This document shows, piece after piece, positions 27,966-43,531 of a stretch of 64,000 bases of DNA. Position 1 is the first letter of the stretch; each line of letters starts with the position of its first letter. Made by a program: the position numbers and the translations under genes. The notes below the pieces were generated by a model, which had not been told where the DNA came from, ran no database searches, and saw only the letters and a program-made list of their open reading frames with translations. This DNA is from Psittacicella hinzii. Lineage in GTDB: Bacteria; Pseudomonadota; Gammaproteobacteria; Enterobacterales; Psittacicellaceae. The DNA lies in the NCBI RefSeq assembly GCF_003585885.1, contig NZ_NRHC01000002.1:1-64000 (forward strand), given 5' to 3'.

Positions 27966-28108
27966 TTGAGCATTTCTCACTAAAAAGCCTTATCTTTAGT
28001 GTATAAAAGCAATCGCTACGAAAGTATGATAAAATCGGCAATCCTTTACCTCGTCGGTAACAATTTGGTAACCATTTAATCGTTTTTTCATTATAGCATA
28101 CCCAACTT

Positions 28109-35363: not shown

Positions 35364-35789
35364 TTAAATTAATCGGGTTCTACCTCTATGATCCGCTTTA
35401 AGTTTGTCAATTTGGGTAGCAATAATAGGGATCTGCGATTCAAAGAAATGCTTCACACCGTCGATTAAAGAGTACTTAGGGATAATTCCCCTATCGGATA
35501 ATCTGATTAAAAAATCCGGTTTAGCCTTGACTTTCTTAGCTACAGTAGCTACGCGAACAAGGTTATCTGGTGATGTACGGTTACTAATTACAGCCATGTT
35601 TTGCGCTAAAGGCTCAATAATGGACATCGCCTGATTATGCTTTTCAGAATATTCTTTAACTAGATCCGCTAATTGGGCTACTAATTTATTGGTCTCTGAA
35701 AGGCGATCATCGAGAGGTAATGTTACTAGATCGTACACTTTATCCACTAAGTCAGCAGTATTTAGAGTAACTTTTTGTCTAGTGCTCAT
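35364..35789 (-). CDS. Small winged-helix-like protein, possible helicase loader or initiator (141 aa)
   Basis: Not firmly recognised. The middle (about 86-116) reads KKVKAKPDFLIRLSDRGIIP then KYSLIDGVKHF, which resembles the MerR/Nu1-type winged helix-turn-helix in which a GxxP-KY-D turn forms the wing. The N-terminal half is helical (LVAQLADLVKEYSEKHNQAM). Directly upstream of the helicase gene, the usual place for a loader or origin-binding protein. The separate terminase small subunit at 47968 argues against this being the packaging Nu1. Confidence 0.6.
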   Translation of the reverse strand: MSTRQKVTLNTADLVDKVYDLVTLPLDDRLSETNKLVAQLADLVKEYSEKHNQAMSIIEPLAQNMAVISNRTSPDNLVRVATVAKKVKAKPDFLIRLSDRGIIPKYSLIDGVKHFFESQIPIIATQIDKLKADHRGRTRLI

Positions 35790-40048: not shown

Positions 40049-40435
40049 TTAGTACTCTACTCTAACGTATGGTTTGTTACCTGTAGAGCTTGTTAACAGT
40101 CTGCCAGATGATAATTTAGCTTTTACTCTGAAGTAGCGAACTGTTTGCTTGTCTCTAATCTCTTTAATCAGGCGTTGTAACGTTGCAGTGTAATCTTGTG
40201 TTACTTTAGAGTAGTGATTAGTGTCTGCTACTCTTGTTTCTTTTACTGATTTGAAATCCGAGTTTGTAATCTCTTGATCTAATGGGATATCTTGACTTGA
40301 TGATAACCAGTAGATTGAGTAGCCTAGTACATGCTCGTTTTCGTCCATTTGCATTAGCTTGATGTTGATATTATTAATTGCTTGTACGAACTTGCATGTT
40401 GTTGATGATGAAGAATGGATTAATTTATTTACCAT
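40049..40435 (-). CDS. Unrecognised first gene of the leftward operon (128 aa)
   Basis: Not recognised. Ser/Thr-rich start (LIHSSSSTTCKFVQAINN), a mixed alpha/beta body, and a basic C-terminal half (RLIKEIRDKQTVRYFRVKAK). It is the gene nearest the PL-like promoter, about 89 nt from its -10, the position lambda N holds. There is no Arg-rich N-peptide motif, so an antiterminator role is only a positional thought. Confidence 0.6.
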   Translation of the reverse strand: MVNKLIHSSSSTTCKFVQAINNINIKLMQMDENEHVLGYSIYWLSSSQDIPLDQEITNSDFKSVKETRVADTNHYSKVTQDYTATLQRLIKEIRDKQTVRYFRVKAKLSSGRLLTSSTGNKPYVRVEY

Positions 40436-40484: not shown

Positions 40485-40499
40485 TACCCATTTACTACC
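40485..40499. promoter_or_regulatory. Putative operator at PL, TACC-N7-TACC
   Basis: TACCCATTTACTACC: two TACC half-sites in direct repeat, 11 bp apart, just downstream of the leftward promoter. The same 15-bp design is at 42711 and, in reverse, at 41843. Confidence 0.5.
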
Positions 40500-40523
40500 T
40501 TTTTCTATCATTTTGTTAGTACC

Positions 40524-40552
40524 ATTTTATACCTTTTCATATACCCAATCAA
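40524..40552 (-). promoter_or_regulatory. Leftward early promoter (PL-like)
   Basis: On minus: TTGATT, 17-nt spacer, TAAAAT. The surrounding 45 nt are nearly identical to the PR-like promoter at 42657 in the opposite orientation, including GGTATAT and TATAAAATGGTAC. Confidence 0.7.
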
Positions 40553-40608
40553 TACCCTAAGAATATCTTTTTCTTGATTTCGTTGATAATTAAGTCAAAA
40601 TAATTTTA

Positions 40609-40645
40609 CAAAAATAAAAAAAGACCGGCTAAATTAGCCGATCCA
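40609..40645 (-). terminator. Repressor gene terminator
   Basis: CGGCTAA-T-TTAGCCG stem extended by GAT/GTC, followed on minus by TTTTTTTATTTTT. It lies 7-40 nt past the repressor stop and separates it from the leftward promoter. Confidence 0.85.
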
Positions 40646-40651
40646 TAAAAA

Positions 40652-41713
40652 TTAATTATTATTTTTTCTAAAAATGTAGGAACAAACACCTACTATTTTT
40701 ATTTTTTTAAATTCTTTTAAAGTGTAAAAAGCAGCGTTATCTATTCTTTTAGATACAAAATAATGCTTTCTATCATTAGAAACCACTTCCATAATATGGC
40801 ATAAACTTTCCTCTTCTCCCTCATTTATTAAGTAAATACCAGACGATACAAATTTATCATGAGGTAAAAATTCCACAATATCATCCTTCCAAACTTTAGG
40901 TACAAGATTGTAATTAACAGCTACTCTAAATATAGGGGTTTTCCCTTGCCATTCTTTTAAATCTTCAGCACCTGCTTGTTCTGCTATAACAGTGTGATCC
41001 CTTAAGTTAACTATGTAGCCTGCTAGTTTACTTATACTCTCACTTAGTTCGTCCCAATCTATTGCCTCTTTATTTGTTGATGAGTAATTATAGTATTTTA
41101 AAAATCTAGGATCTTTAATAAACTCTGACTTATCCACCCAACCTTTAAAATTACAATAATCAAAGAACTCTTTAAATAAAGCTCCTCTTAAATTAAATCT
41201 TAATGATAAGCAATCGATCAATCTATTAGGTATCTTTTTATTTTGTTTAACCTTATAAAGGTAGTTATGAGAAAGTCCTAATTCAATGCTTAAATTGCCA
41301 TAACTTAATTCTAACTCTTGACAGAAATCTTCTAAAAGTTCAAAAATTTGCTCGTCTGTCAGTTGTATAAAGGCAGTTACTAAATGTTTAGAATTATCCA
41401 CCTTTAAAGGTTGATACATCTTAATTTTATCTACATCACTATTTAATATATCAAAGATATCAATAGAATACATGTCACAGAATTGCAAGAGCTGGTGATT
41501 ACTAGTTTTTATTTTAAACTTATTATAAAAAATTCCGTCACCATCATTAATAACATCGACTAATCTATAGTTATTATTTTTAATAATAGTTTTAATTACT
41601 TGACGATTGTCTAAGTTAAACTTATCGTCTTTAGTTTCATTATACCAATCCAAAAATTTTATAACGGACGGTTGCTTAGTCGCTCTTATAAATTTAAATA
41701 GATTTTCTTTCAT
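40652..41713 (-). CDS. Phage repressor with two HTH domains and an S24-like C-terminus
   Basis: Probable lysogeny repressor (CI-like role). Residues about 36-90 look like a diverged XRE helix-turn-helix ending in the typical LLQFCDMYSIDIFDIL. Residues about 125-176 hold a second, clearer one (LSYGNLSIELGLSHNYLYKV). The C-terminal part (about 225-353) resembles the S24/LexA fold: an Ala-Gly pair in EQAGAEDL (247-248), NYNLVPKVWKDDIVEF where GDSMxPxxxxGD is expected, SGIYLI, and VSKRID with the expected Lys (K322). The catalytic Ser position appears to be Asn269, so self-cleavage is doubtful. Lies between PL- and PR-like promoters. Confidence 0.75.
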   Translation of the reverse strand: MKENLFKFIRATKQPSVIKFLDWYNETKDDKFNLDNRQVIKTIIKNNNYRLVDVINDGDGIFYNKFKIKTSNHQLLQFCDMYSIDIFDILNSDVDKIKMYQPLKVDNSKHLVTAFIQLTDEQIFELLEDFCQELELSYGNLSIELGLSHNYLYKVKQNKKIPNRLIDCLSLRFNLRGALFKEFFDYCNFKGWVDKSEFIKDPRFLKYYNYSSTNKEAIDWDELSESISKLAGYIVNLRDHTVIAEQAGAEDLKEWQGKTPIFRVAVNYNLVPKVWKDDIVEFLPHDKFVSSGIYLINEGEEESLCHIMEVVSNDRKHYFVSKRIDNAAFYTLKEFKKIKIVGVCSYIFRKNNN

Positions 41714-41812
41714 CGTACATCTTTTAATTCTTCTTAGGGTAAATTTTAAAATTGCCTGTTAATGCAAATTTTGATTTGGACAGTATTATACAATTAATTG
41801 TAATTTTGGGTA

Positions 41813-41857
41813 TACCTTTTTAGCACCTTTTTCTTATTTTTAGGTAGCAATTGGGTA
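41813..41857. promoter_or_regulatory. Putative operators upstream of the repressor gene
   Basis: On plus, TACC-N7-CACC (41813-41827, imperfect, overlapping the palindrome GGTATACC) and GGTA-N7-GGTA (41843-41857). They lie 100-145 nt before the repressor start, consistent with autoregulation. Confidence 0.45.
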
Positions 41858-42130
41858 AATTATTTTGTTCTTCCTTACCAAGATAGTTGTACTATACTGT
41901 TTCTACCTCAAAATTCCCATATAGAAGTCTATTCTAAGAATAACCTTAAATTTATAAGGGTCTTTAGGTGGGCTTAAAAACTTTCTTCTTCTAAAAATCA
42001 ACAATTTAAAATTTAAACGACCAAAAAGAAAATAAAATTTTTCTGCAAAATTTTGAAAAATATGCTACCCTAGAAAAAAGATTATTCTTTAAAGATCCTA
42101 TAAAAACAATATACTTACCTTGCTAGGCAA

Positions 42131-42185
42131 GGGCTAATCCACCCCTCGGGGTGAAACCCTGCGAGGGGTGGGGTAAGATTAGCCC
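42131..42185. repeat. Three-tier GC-rich hairpin
   Basis: Outer stem GGGCTAATC / GATTAGCCC, middle stem CACCCCTCG / CGAGGGGTG, inner GGGT / ACCC with a GAA loop; a 6-nt bulge (GGGTAA) sits on the 3' side. It is unusually GC-rich for this DNA. It could be a single-strand initiation site, a protein-bound cruciform or an RNA. Confidence 0.7.
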
Positions 42186-42254
42186 GCAAGCCGACGCAAA
42201 CGTAAATATTACAAACGTGTCTTTAAGCAGAGAATAACCTTTAATAAAAGATTA

Positions 42255-42276
42255 TTACCCAGCGGTAGCTGATGAA
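42255..42276 (+). repeat. 22-bp origin repeat, copy 1
   Basis: TTACCCAGCGGTAGCTGATG plus AA. An exact inverted copy is at 42486-42507 and a diverged direct copy at 42306. Confidence 0.7.
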
Positions 42277-42305
42277 TACCTAAGACATTCTGAGAATAAA
42301 TATTA

Positions 42306-42327
42306 TTACCCAGCTTTAGCTGATGTA
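42306..42327 (+). repeat. 22-bp origin repeat, copy 2 (diverged)
   Basis: TTACCCAGCTTTAGCTGATG plus TA, three mismatches from copy 1, 51 bp after it. The preceding AATAAAxATTA is also shared. Confidence 0.65.
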
Positions 42328-42346
42328 TATCTAAATTAAATATTAA

Positions 42347-42440
42347 AAACTTTTTAAAACAATTTCTATATAACATTATAGAAAAAACTTTTTAAGATAA
42401 TCTCTATATACATTGTATATAGGGATTTTCTTTTTTTTTG
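42347..42440 (+). repeat. Tandem AT-rich palindrome units with a T-run
   Basis: Two imperfect copies of a unit AAAAACTTTTTAA... each followed by a palindrome: TTTCTATA/TATAGAAA (42363-42384) and CTATATACA-T-TGTATATAG (42404-42422). The second is followed by TTTTCTTTTTTTTT and so could terminate rightward transcripts. Confidence 0.55.
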
Positions 42441-42485
42441 CGAAAAATTTTTTCAAAAAGTTTTTGGCTATTTTGATCCAAAAGT

Positions 42486-42507
42486 TTCATCAGCTACCGC
42501 TGGGTAA
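42486..42507 (-). repeat. 22-bp origin repeat, copy 3 (inverted, exact)
   Basis: Reverse complement of copy 1 over all 22 bp, 210 bp downstream of its end. Confidence 0.7.
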
Positions 42508-42561
42508 AAATATTTTTTTTAAGTCTCCTTTTATATTTAATCTTACTTTAAGAATATCCAT

Positions 42562-42633
42562 TTTTTAACTTCTTATCGCACCCCCTTATACGCTCCCCTT
42601 GACGGTACGCTAGGGGGCGCTTGAAGTTAAAAA
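42562..42633. repeat. Second long hairpin upstream of PR
   Basis: Outer 11-bp stem TTTTTAACTTC / GAAGTTAAAAA and inner GCACCCCC / GGGGGCGC with one mismatch; the loop contains two ACGCT direct repeats. It ends 24 nt before the -35 of the PR-like promoter. Confidence 0.6.
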
Positions 42634-42656
42634 GGTAGCAATCGTACAAAAATGTA

Positions 42657-42685
42657 TTGACTTGGTATATAAAATAGTATAAAAT
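42657..42685 (+). promoter_or_regulatory. Rightward early promoter (PR-like)
   Basis: TTGACT, 17-nt spacer, TAAAAT, 75 nt before ssb. TTGGTA (42662-42667) and TACCAA (42688-42693) form an inverted pair around the -10. Near-identical to the PL-like promoter at 40524-40552. Confidence 0.75.
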
Positions 42686-42710
42686 GGTACCAACAAAATC
42701 AACTTTAAGT

Positions 42711-42725
42711 TACCCATAAACTACC
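42711..42725. promoter_or_regulatory. Putative operator at PR, TACC-N7-TACC
   Basis: TACCCATAAACTACC, the counterpart of the PL operator at 40485, between the PR-like promoter and the ssb start. Confidence 0.5.
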
Positions 42726-42760: not shown

Positions 42761-43531
42761 ATGAGTACATATATCACTATTAAAGGACGTCTAGGGCGAG
42801 ATCCTGAAACATTTCAGTCTGACAATAAAACGTATTGTAGATTGTCAGTCGCTGTAACATATAGATCCTTTAGTAATGAAACAAATGCTTGGGAGGACGT
42901 TTTCACAGAATGGTACAACGTCTTCATCGCTCAACTATATTTAGTTAGTAGAGCTTCACTCTTAAAAAAAGGTTGTGAGGTTATAGTTAGCGGTAACATA
43001 TCTTTTAATAAGTACCAAGATAAAAATACAGGCGAAGAAAGAGTAGGTAAAAATATGAACTGCTCTGAACTGTATTTCACTACTACCAACGATCAATCAT
43101 TACAACAATGTGTACAGATCGCAACGAGTAACTTCGGTAATACTCAACCACAAAGTGGCGGTTTTAATAATAACCAAAATAATGGTTTCAACAACCAACC
43201 ACAACAGAACGGCTTTAGAAACCAAAGCCAACAAGGTTTTAGTAATCAGCAAGGCTTTAAGCCACAACAGGCTAATCCAACTCCTGTGCCGCAATACCAA
43301 CAAGCTCCACAGCAACCACAACAACAGCCTGTTCAAAATGTTCAGACTCAACCACAGTTTAAACCAAATGGCGAGATAGATACAACTATCAACCCAGTAA
43401 CTGGTCAGCCATTCCAACAATCGAACCCATACCAGCCTACTAACCAACCAATGAAACAGGTTAATAGACCGGTACAAGAATACTCTGATGATAGTGCAGT
43501 ATCAGTACCAGAAGAGAGTATACCTTTTTAA
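42761..43531 (+). CDS. ssb: Phage single-stranded DNA-binding protein
   Basis: OB-fold SSB for replication and recombination. Residues 1-110 are the binding domain: YITIKGRLGRDPETFQSDNK at 4-23, WEDVFTEWYNVFI, GCEVIVSGNISFNKY. Residues about 125-235 form a long Gln/Asn-rich linker. The end DDSAVSVPEESIPF is the acidic tip with the IPF-type last residues that dock partner proteins in bacterial SSBs. Length 256 aa is long because of the linker. First gene after the PR-like promoter. Likely partner of the Sak4-like ATPase. Confidence 0.9.
   Translation: MSTYITIKGRLGRDPETFQSDNKTYCRLSVAVTYRSFSNETNAWEDVFTEWYNVFIAQLYLVSRASLLKKGCEVIVSGNISFNKYQDKNTGEERVGKNMNCSELYFTTTNDQSLQQCVQIATSNFGNTQPQSGGFNNNQNNGFNNQPQQNGFRNQSQQGFSNQQGFKPQQANPTPVPQYQQAPQQPQQQPVQNVQTQPQFKPNGEIDTTINPVTGQPFQQSNPYQPTNQPMKQVNRPVQEYSDDSAVSVPEESIPF

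Follow-up and report, generated by a model that had tools for sequence, protein, structure and literature searches.

Switches of the lambda type are taught with inverted-repeat operators, and the CI repressors of phages lambda and 186 do use operators of that kind. In lambda the CI operators lie at both early promoters and at the repressor's own promoter, CI auto-activates from OR2, and CII binds direct repeats that flank a −35. LexA of alpha-proteobacteria has one helix-turn-helix (HTH) domain per chain, and the C repressor of phage P2 is without a LexA-like domain. The SOS box of alpha-proteobacterial LexA, that of Caulobacter included, is GTTC-N7-GTTC (PMC9578287, PMC3091678). P2 C is a small dimer of 99 amino acids that reads direct, non-palindromic repeats of 8 bp, spaced 22 bp from centre to centre (PMC4752584), a non-palindromic site is reported for the dimeric Pf4 repressor (PMC8402870), and the direct repeats bound by Apl of phage 186, of 10-11 bp, lie at att and in the interval from pR to pL (PMC7498355). 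The subject here is a set of direct-repeat boxes, TACC-N7-TACC, in the lysis-lysogeny switch of a Psittacicella hinzii prophage of lambda-like type, which lies in a stretch of 64,000 nucleotides that was analysed as a whole and is called the window below (assembly GCF_003585885.1, contig NZ_NRHC01000002.1, positions 1 to 64,000). The box set is real and non-random. Its members are probably operators of the switch, bound by the product of the adjacent repressor gene, for which a CI/LexA-like fold is predicted; a layout of direct repeats is unusual among switches of the lambda type, yet it has close precedents.

The switch comprises the repressor gene and two divergent early operons (Table 1). 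A preliminary description, made from the letters of the DNA, had placed boxes at the leftward (PL) and rightward (PR) early promoters and, reversed, upstream of the repressor gene, with an imperfect copy at 41813. All three of the former are exact in the sequence and the imperfect copy is present as TACC-N7-CACC; the box sequences also bear out that the half-sites are direct repeats 11 bp, or one helical turn, apart, and the placement is at the promoters expected to be under the control of a CI-type switch repressor. The observation turns out to be larger than was stated there, as the switch has a fourth perfect box, at 40542, and the leftward promoter has half-sites in an array. The seven TACC/GGTA half-sites of the leftward intergenic region are all on the + strand (40445, 40485, 40496, 40520, 40530, 40542 and 40553), and six of them fall in roughly 11-bp steps. 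The remaining perfect matches of the window are at its left prophage end (28056, − strand) and at the end of a gene (44311, − strand).

With +1 set seven bases past the −10, the two early promoters have the same geometry, with boxes centred at −32 and at +26 or +27, the −32 box of the rightward promoter being imperfect. The cores of these promoters are inverted copies of each other, identical at 40 of 46 positions, a figure attained in none of 100 shuffles. Outside this duplicated stretch, the +26 boxes are themselves alike over 24 bases (21/24; 0/2000 shuffles). Over the sequence scanned there is no excess of promoters as such, 10 having been called against a shuffle mean of 12.5. Relative to transcription the +26 boxes are oppositely oriented at the two early promoters and would, if transcribed, yield different RNA sequences; because the downstream box is flipped in this way at one promoter, DNA is favoured over RNA as the acting form. 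An RNA-level, nut-like element was considered and rejected in view of the opposite orientation and the lack of any Rfam match in the region.

Table 1. Features of the switch and its surroundings (window positions).
Feature	Position	Strand	Remark
OL box TACCCATTTACTACC	40485..40499	+	centre ~+26 of leftward promoter
Second perfect OL box TACCCAATCAATACC	40542..40556	+	covers leftward promoter −35, centre −32
Two more TACC half-sites (40520, 40530)	40520..40533	+	between OL boxes; 10-12 bp from each other and from 40542 half-site
OR box TACCCATAAACTACC	42711..42725	+	centre ~+27 of rightward promoter; on OL box's genomic strand, so flipped relative to transcription
Imperfect OR box TACC-N7-TACA	42653..42667	−	covers rightward promoter −35, centre −32
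Perfect box TACCCAATTGCTACC upstream of repressor promoter	41843..41857	−	centre ~−72
Imperfect box TACC-N7-CACC	41813..41827	+	centre ~−42 of repressor promoter
Leftward early promoter TTGATT-17-TAAAAT	40524..40552	−	promoter scan
Rightward early promoter TTGACT-17-TAAAAT, upstream of SSB gene	42657..42685	+	promoter scan
Presumed repressor promoter −10, TATAAT	41785..41790	−	−35 slot poor
46-bp promoter core, 87% common to inverted copy at 42654-42699 of rightward promoter	40510..40555	−	repeat comparison
Repressor gene, 353 amino acids; C-terminal LexA/UmuD/CI-like fold (model level), orphan family	40652..41713	−	fold of residues ~254-353
SSB gene, first of rightward operon	42761..43531	+	PF00436, 2e-13
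First gene of leftward operon, 128 amino acids, no assigned function	40049..40435	−	homologue in sibling prophage
Direct repeat TTACCAAATTGTTACC at left prophage end; motif related to the boxes yet distinct, probable integrase arm-type site	28056..28071	−	motif comparison

In the window there are six perfect TACC-N7-TACC sequences against 1.16 expected, a number that none of 100 shuffles reaches. A search of the whole genome for the 15-mer, as had been proposed in the preliminary description, is unspecific for the bare form, with 72 matches (35 forward, 37 reverse), and specific for an extended one: the consensus TTACCCANNNRCTACCTWWW has three perfect matches in the 2.3-Mb genome, all of them in the switch, and 16 matches with two mismatches, but no copy that differs from it at a single position. 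As it was from the three perfect sites that the extended pattern was derived, what is informative is the absence of near copies. Within the 1263 bp of intergenic DNA of the switch the half-sites, TACC or GGTA, number 30 (shuffle mean 10), and the same-strand pairs among them include four at 11 bp and six at 10-12 bp; not one of 5000 dinucleotide shuffles attains the four 11-bp pairs, the six 10-12-bp pairs, the 30 half-sites or the four same-strand pairs of the leftward region. When the number of half-sites is held fixed and their placement randomized (20,000 draws), P is 0.0003 for 11 bp and 0.0004 for 10-12 bp, rising to 0.008-0.009 when the search is taken over all spacings and orientations. 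When all 4-mers containing a G or a C are searched, the leftward region yields TACC, at a spacing of 10-12 bp (P<1/400). For TACC half-sites, pairs on opposite strands show no peak at helical spacing; the helically spaced pairs are on the same strand.

What is presumed to bind the boxes is a protein with few relatives. Its alignment consists of three rows, the window protein and two paralogues with 34% and 27% identity, and the AlphaFold model obtained from them is poor (mean pLDDT 47, the C-terminal domain at about 44-70). Nevertheless, chains of LexA, UmuD and CI top the Foldseek list, with probability up to 1.00 and a best E of 7e-3, none being at E<=1e-3, and structure comparison of residues ~254-353 gives Z scores up to 9.1 (3.2 Å over 88 residues). 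At the level of the model the C-terminus of the repressor has a LexA/UmuD/CI-like fold. That first list of structure matches was filled by the C-terminal domain, with the N-terminal part barely sampled, and structure searches with a model of residues 1-210, itself poor, gave no match. Regulators in PHROG match residues 119-169 very weakly (E 0.07-0.12). Placement by eye on the three-row alignment puts Asn269 at the position of the catalytic serine, which is Lys in the copy of the sibling prophage described below and Ser in the third copy; because of this asparagine, self-cleavage is doubtful.

The case for operators draws on the boxes at three promoters, the enrichment and spacing of half-sites, the confinement of the extended consensus to the switch, the shared −32/+26 geometry and the fold predicted for the C-terminus of the repressor. 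Under the mechanism proposed, a repressor dimer would be joined by its LexA-like C-terminal domains on flexible linkers, most likely with one DNA-binding domain per subunit, and the two DNA-binding domains would read TACC half-sites of the same orientation one helical turn apart. Occupation of the −32 box, over the −35, would block access of polymerase and the +26 box could serve as a roadblock, so that both early promoters would be repressed. At the presumed repressor promoter, with its good −10 and poor −35, the imperfect box at −42 may position the repressor for auto-activation, a further box being present at about −72.

Among described systems, the SOS box of alpha-proteobacterial LexA is alike in being a 4-N7-4 direct repeat of 11-bp period read by a protein whose C-terminal fold the window repressor appears to share. 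The half-site is another one, and that protein is a host SOS regulator rather than part of a phage switch; the window repressor also differs in the asparagine placed by eye at the catalytic-serine position and in a DNA-binding domain that is not recognised. P2 C is likewise a phage switch repressor on direct repeats, but has 99 rather than 353 amino acids and repeats 22 rather than 11 bp apart. With the group of Apl of 186, Cox and Xis, the locus has in common that its early promoters carry direct repeats in tandem, spaced by one turn; those proteins also act at att through such repeats, whereas here the motif at the prophage ends differs from that of the switch, with an exception in the box at 41843, which matches the left end at 14 of 16 bases. 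To CI of lambda and 186 the likeness is in the predicted C-terminal fold and in a repressor gene between divergent early promoters, and, for lambda, in the putative operators at both early promoters and at the repressor's own promoter, a layout that in the window is seen at the level of sequence. Unlike the operators of those phages the boxes are direct repeats, and the searches gave no sequence match of the repressor to CI. No precedent for a lambda-like phage repressor of CI fold with 4-N7-4 direct repeats was found in the literature searched, a limited open-access library. If the operator reading is true, a switch of lambda layout that combines a LexA/CI-fold repressor with 4-N7-4 repeats would be a phage case to set beside LexA and P2 C, and would offer a compact system for studying the recognition of an asymmetric site by a symmetric dimer. 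As the repressor family is unmatched in the family libraries searched, the operators would also be the first handle on its function.

The host genome, 2.3 Mb, is in 162 contigs, and the window from ~28.1 kb onward is lambda-like prophage, with genes for a DnaB-type helicase, YqaJ exonuclease, SSB, RusA, lysozyme, a gpA-type terminase and a lambda-family portal. Its terminase is 32-34% identical to those of Gifsy-2, Fels-1 and cdtI, and the integrase gene, whose product has an arm-DNA-binding domain, is on a further contig (C75:72210-73400). The same genome has a sibling prophage on two contigs, C13 and C98, the ends of which share 20 bases in inverted orientation; a terminator hairpin probably interrupted the assembly there. 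The order of lysis genes, RusA, SSB, divergent repressor and homologue of the first leftward gene is that of the window, with the repressor 34% and the integrase 39% identical. In the switch of this sibling there is no comparable box: its best motif scores are 13.1 and 10.7, and the real sites score 24-29. Elsewhere in the genus, the search for SSB-linked prophage switches gave the C13 sibling only, the remaining matches, of which one in G003 was inspected, reading as host SSBs. Two prophage contigs of the same-genus genome G003 end near their leftward promoters, and neither shows significant 10-12-bp phasing.

Several observations weigh against the operator reading. Searches of Pfam, NCBIfam and PDB sequences gave no HTH, family or domain match for the repressor, and AlphaFold confidence in it is low (two models, mean pLDDT 47). 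The 4-mer test applied to regions singly gives P=0.055 for the rightward one and P=0.85 for the repressor promoter, neither being significant alone, and TACC-N7-TACC comes only about 32nd in a ranking of the region's 4-Nk-4 dyads, which is headed by the unrelated CAGC-N4-GCTG. If a turn is taken as 10.5 bp, the phase of the +26 boxes differs from that of the −32 boxes by about half a turn. A look for operators in the sibling switch, its own or shared with the window, found none; three same-genus switches (C98/C13, and C201 and C16 of G003) are without phased 10-12-bp direct repeats in the same test, so the repressor family need not use the direct-repeat design. The boxes might also be a GC-containing tetramer that happens to cluster in regulatory DNA rich in AT, boosted by the duplicated promoter core, for the dyad rank is low, the genome holds 72 bare matches and the array is partly inside the duplicated 46 bp. 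Given the 5000 shuffles, the P value of 0.0003 with half-site number fixed, and the likeness of the +26 boxes outside that core, such an origin is very improbable. A different DNA-binding protein, for instance a CII-like or Cro-like regulator, might use the boxes, and the half-sites at 40542-40556 do flank a −35 hexamer in a manner for which lambda CII is a precedent; yet both early promoters have near-consensus hexamers that need no activator, and among the frames tested beside the switch none of Cro or CII size has a matching profile, which leaves this a quite improbable assignment.

In the main rival reading, an Apl/Cox-like recombination directionality factor, or excisionase, would bind the boxes and also control the early promoters. 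Winged-helix factors of this kind bind head-to-tail on direct repeats one turn apart, and Apl of phage 186 acts on such repeats at att and at early promoters (PMC7498355). Direct repeats of GTTAC type, 11 bp apart, are present at both ends of the window prophage (window 28056; C75:73432), the 41843 box equals the left-end repeat at 14 of 16 bases, and a protein from another sibling (L036:1804-2268), the positional counterpart of one in the window, has weak matches to excisionase and HTH_17 profiles (E 5.6e-4 and 4.5e-4). The window counterpart of that protein (35364-35789, 141 amino acids), in contrast, is without significant profile match or similarity to its counterparts. A model of the end motif GTTACYAAAWTGTTAMC scores the switch sites at 0.6-12.7 against 25-29 for the end sites, while a model of the switch motif gives the end sites 5-9, and the sibling prophage has the motif at both ends and not in its switch. 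Since the sibling keeps the end repeats while its switch has no comparable box, the switch motif tracks the repressor rather than the integrase, and an excisionase as the binder of the boxes is unlikely. Integrase arm-type sites flank the core on both arms, and so do the end repeats flank a candidate core; they are probably arm-type sites. The GTTACYAAAWTGTTAMC repeats are found at both ends of two prophages (window 28056-28071, C75:73432-73447, C98:8289-8304 and C13:9020-9035), and the candidate 7-base core, AATCGCT, is near both ends of the window prophage.

A further alternative concerns how the repressor would read its boxes rather than whether it does. The preliminary description had taken it for a single chain with two similar HTH domains side by side, one monomer covering two half-sites. 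The protein is long enough (353 amino acids), and in the low-confidence secondary structure helix clusters at 36-89 and 120-189 might each be a five-helix HTH domain. The segments are without profile similarity, though, as residues 1-100 and 101-203 aligned by hhalign give a probability of 0.9% (three sequences per alignment), and no family or fold match was found for the N-terminal 210 residues, whose models are poor. Direct repeats are in any case possible without such an architecture: because alpha-proteobacterial LexA reads GTTC-N7-GTTC and P2 C reads direct repeats, two HTHs per chain are not needed for the direct-repeat reading, and the two-domain chain is improbable. Similarly doubtful is the bolder notion of an orphan repressor family with two diverged HTHs per chain under a LexA-fold oligomerisation domain, in which one chain would occupy each TACC-N7-TACC box, chains would spread along the phased half-sites of the leftward region, and the orientation of a box with respect to its promoter would be immaterial.

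Relatives of the repressor are absent from the viral contigs, genome contigs and phage records searched, and in 197 genomes searched for them a match at E<=1e-4 occurs in its own genome only. The three-row profile matches at E<=0.01 in six of 295 genomes; outside its own genome the sole strong match is a fragment in G003, the others being weak or restricted to the C-terminal part. The G003 sequence (L038 8970-9776) is a decayed copy of the repressor family with nine in-frame stops. In two same-genus genomes stand-alone proteins of 131 and 139 amino acids (L026 1384-1779 and L028 129-548) resemble the C-terminal domain of the repressor, and each adjoins a divergent gene, that of L026 being helicase-like in appearance. 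The third repressor copy (L011 985-2139) lies between genes that by eye are TonB-receptor-like and ClpB-like. Upstream of it by 100-150 bp are about five 10-bp tandem units, ATAAGCGAAG (L011 2240-2291); this array was looked at as support for operators and set aside, short tandem arrays being found elsewhere in the genome as well. Between the SSB and repressor genes of the sibling prophage an 81-bp unit that includes a TTGACA-like hexamer is repeated in tandem, nearly four times over (L010 382-685). In the leftward promoter region of a G003 prophage (L036 5880-5940) ATGRT motifs recur by eye in ~10-11-bp steps, though not significantly in the 4-mer test, and this contig ends within the apparent C-terminus of a repressor-like gene.

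Other elements are present in the 1 kb of non-coding DNA that precedes the SSB gene. A very stable RNA stem-loop is predicted at 42115-42205 (−46.3 kcal/mol for 42100-42210, z −4.7), with no match in Rfam. In the same stretch there are three copies, two direct and one inverted, of an element resembling ATTATTACCCAGC-N4-GCTGATG (42247-42283, 42298-42334 and 42486-42523). They centre on CAGC-N4-GCTG, the strongest dyad of the region, which is possibly an origin or the site of another dimeric protein.

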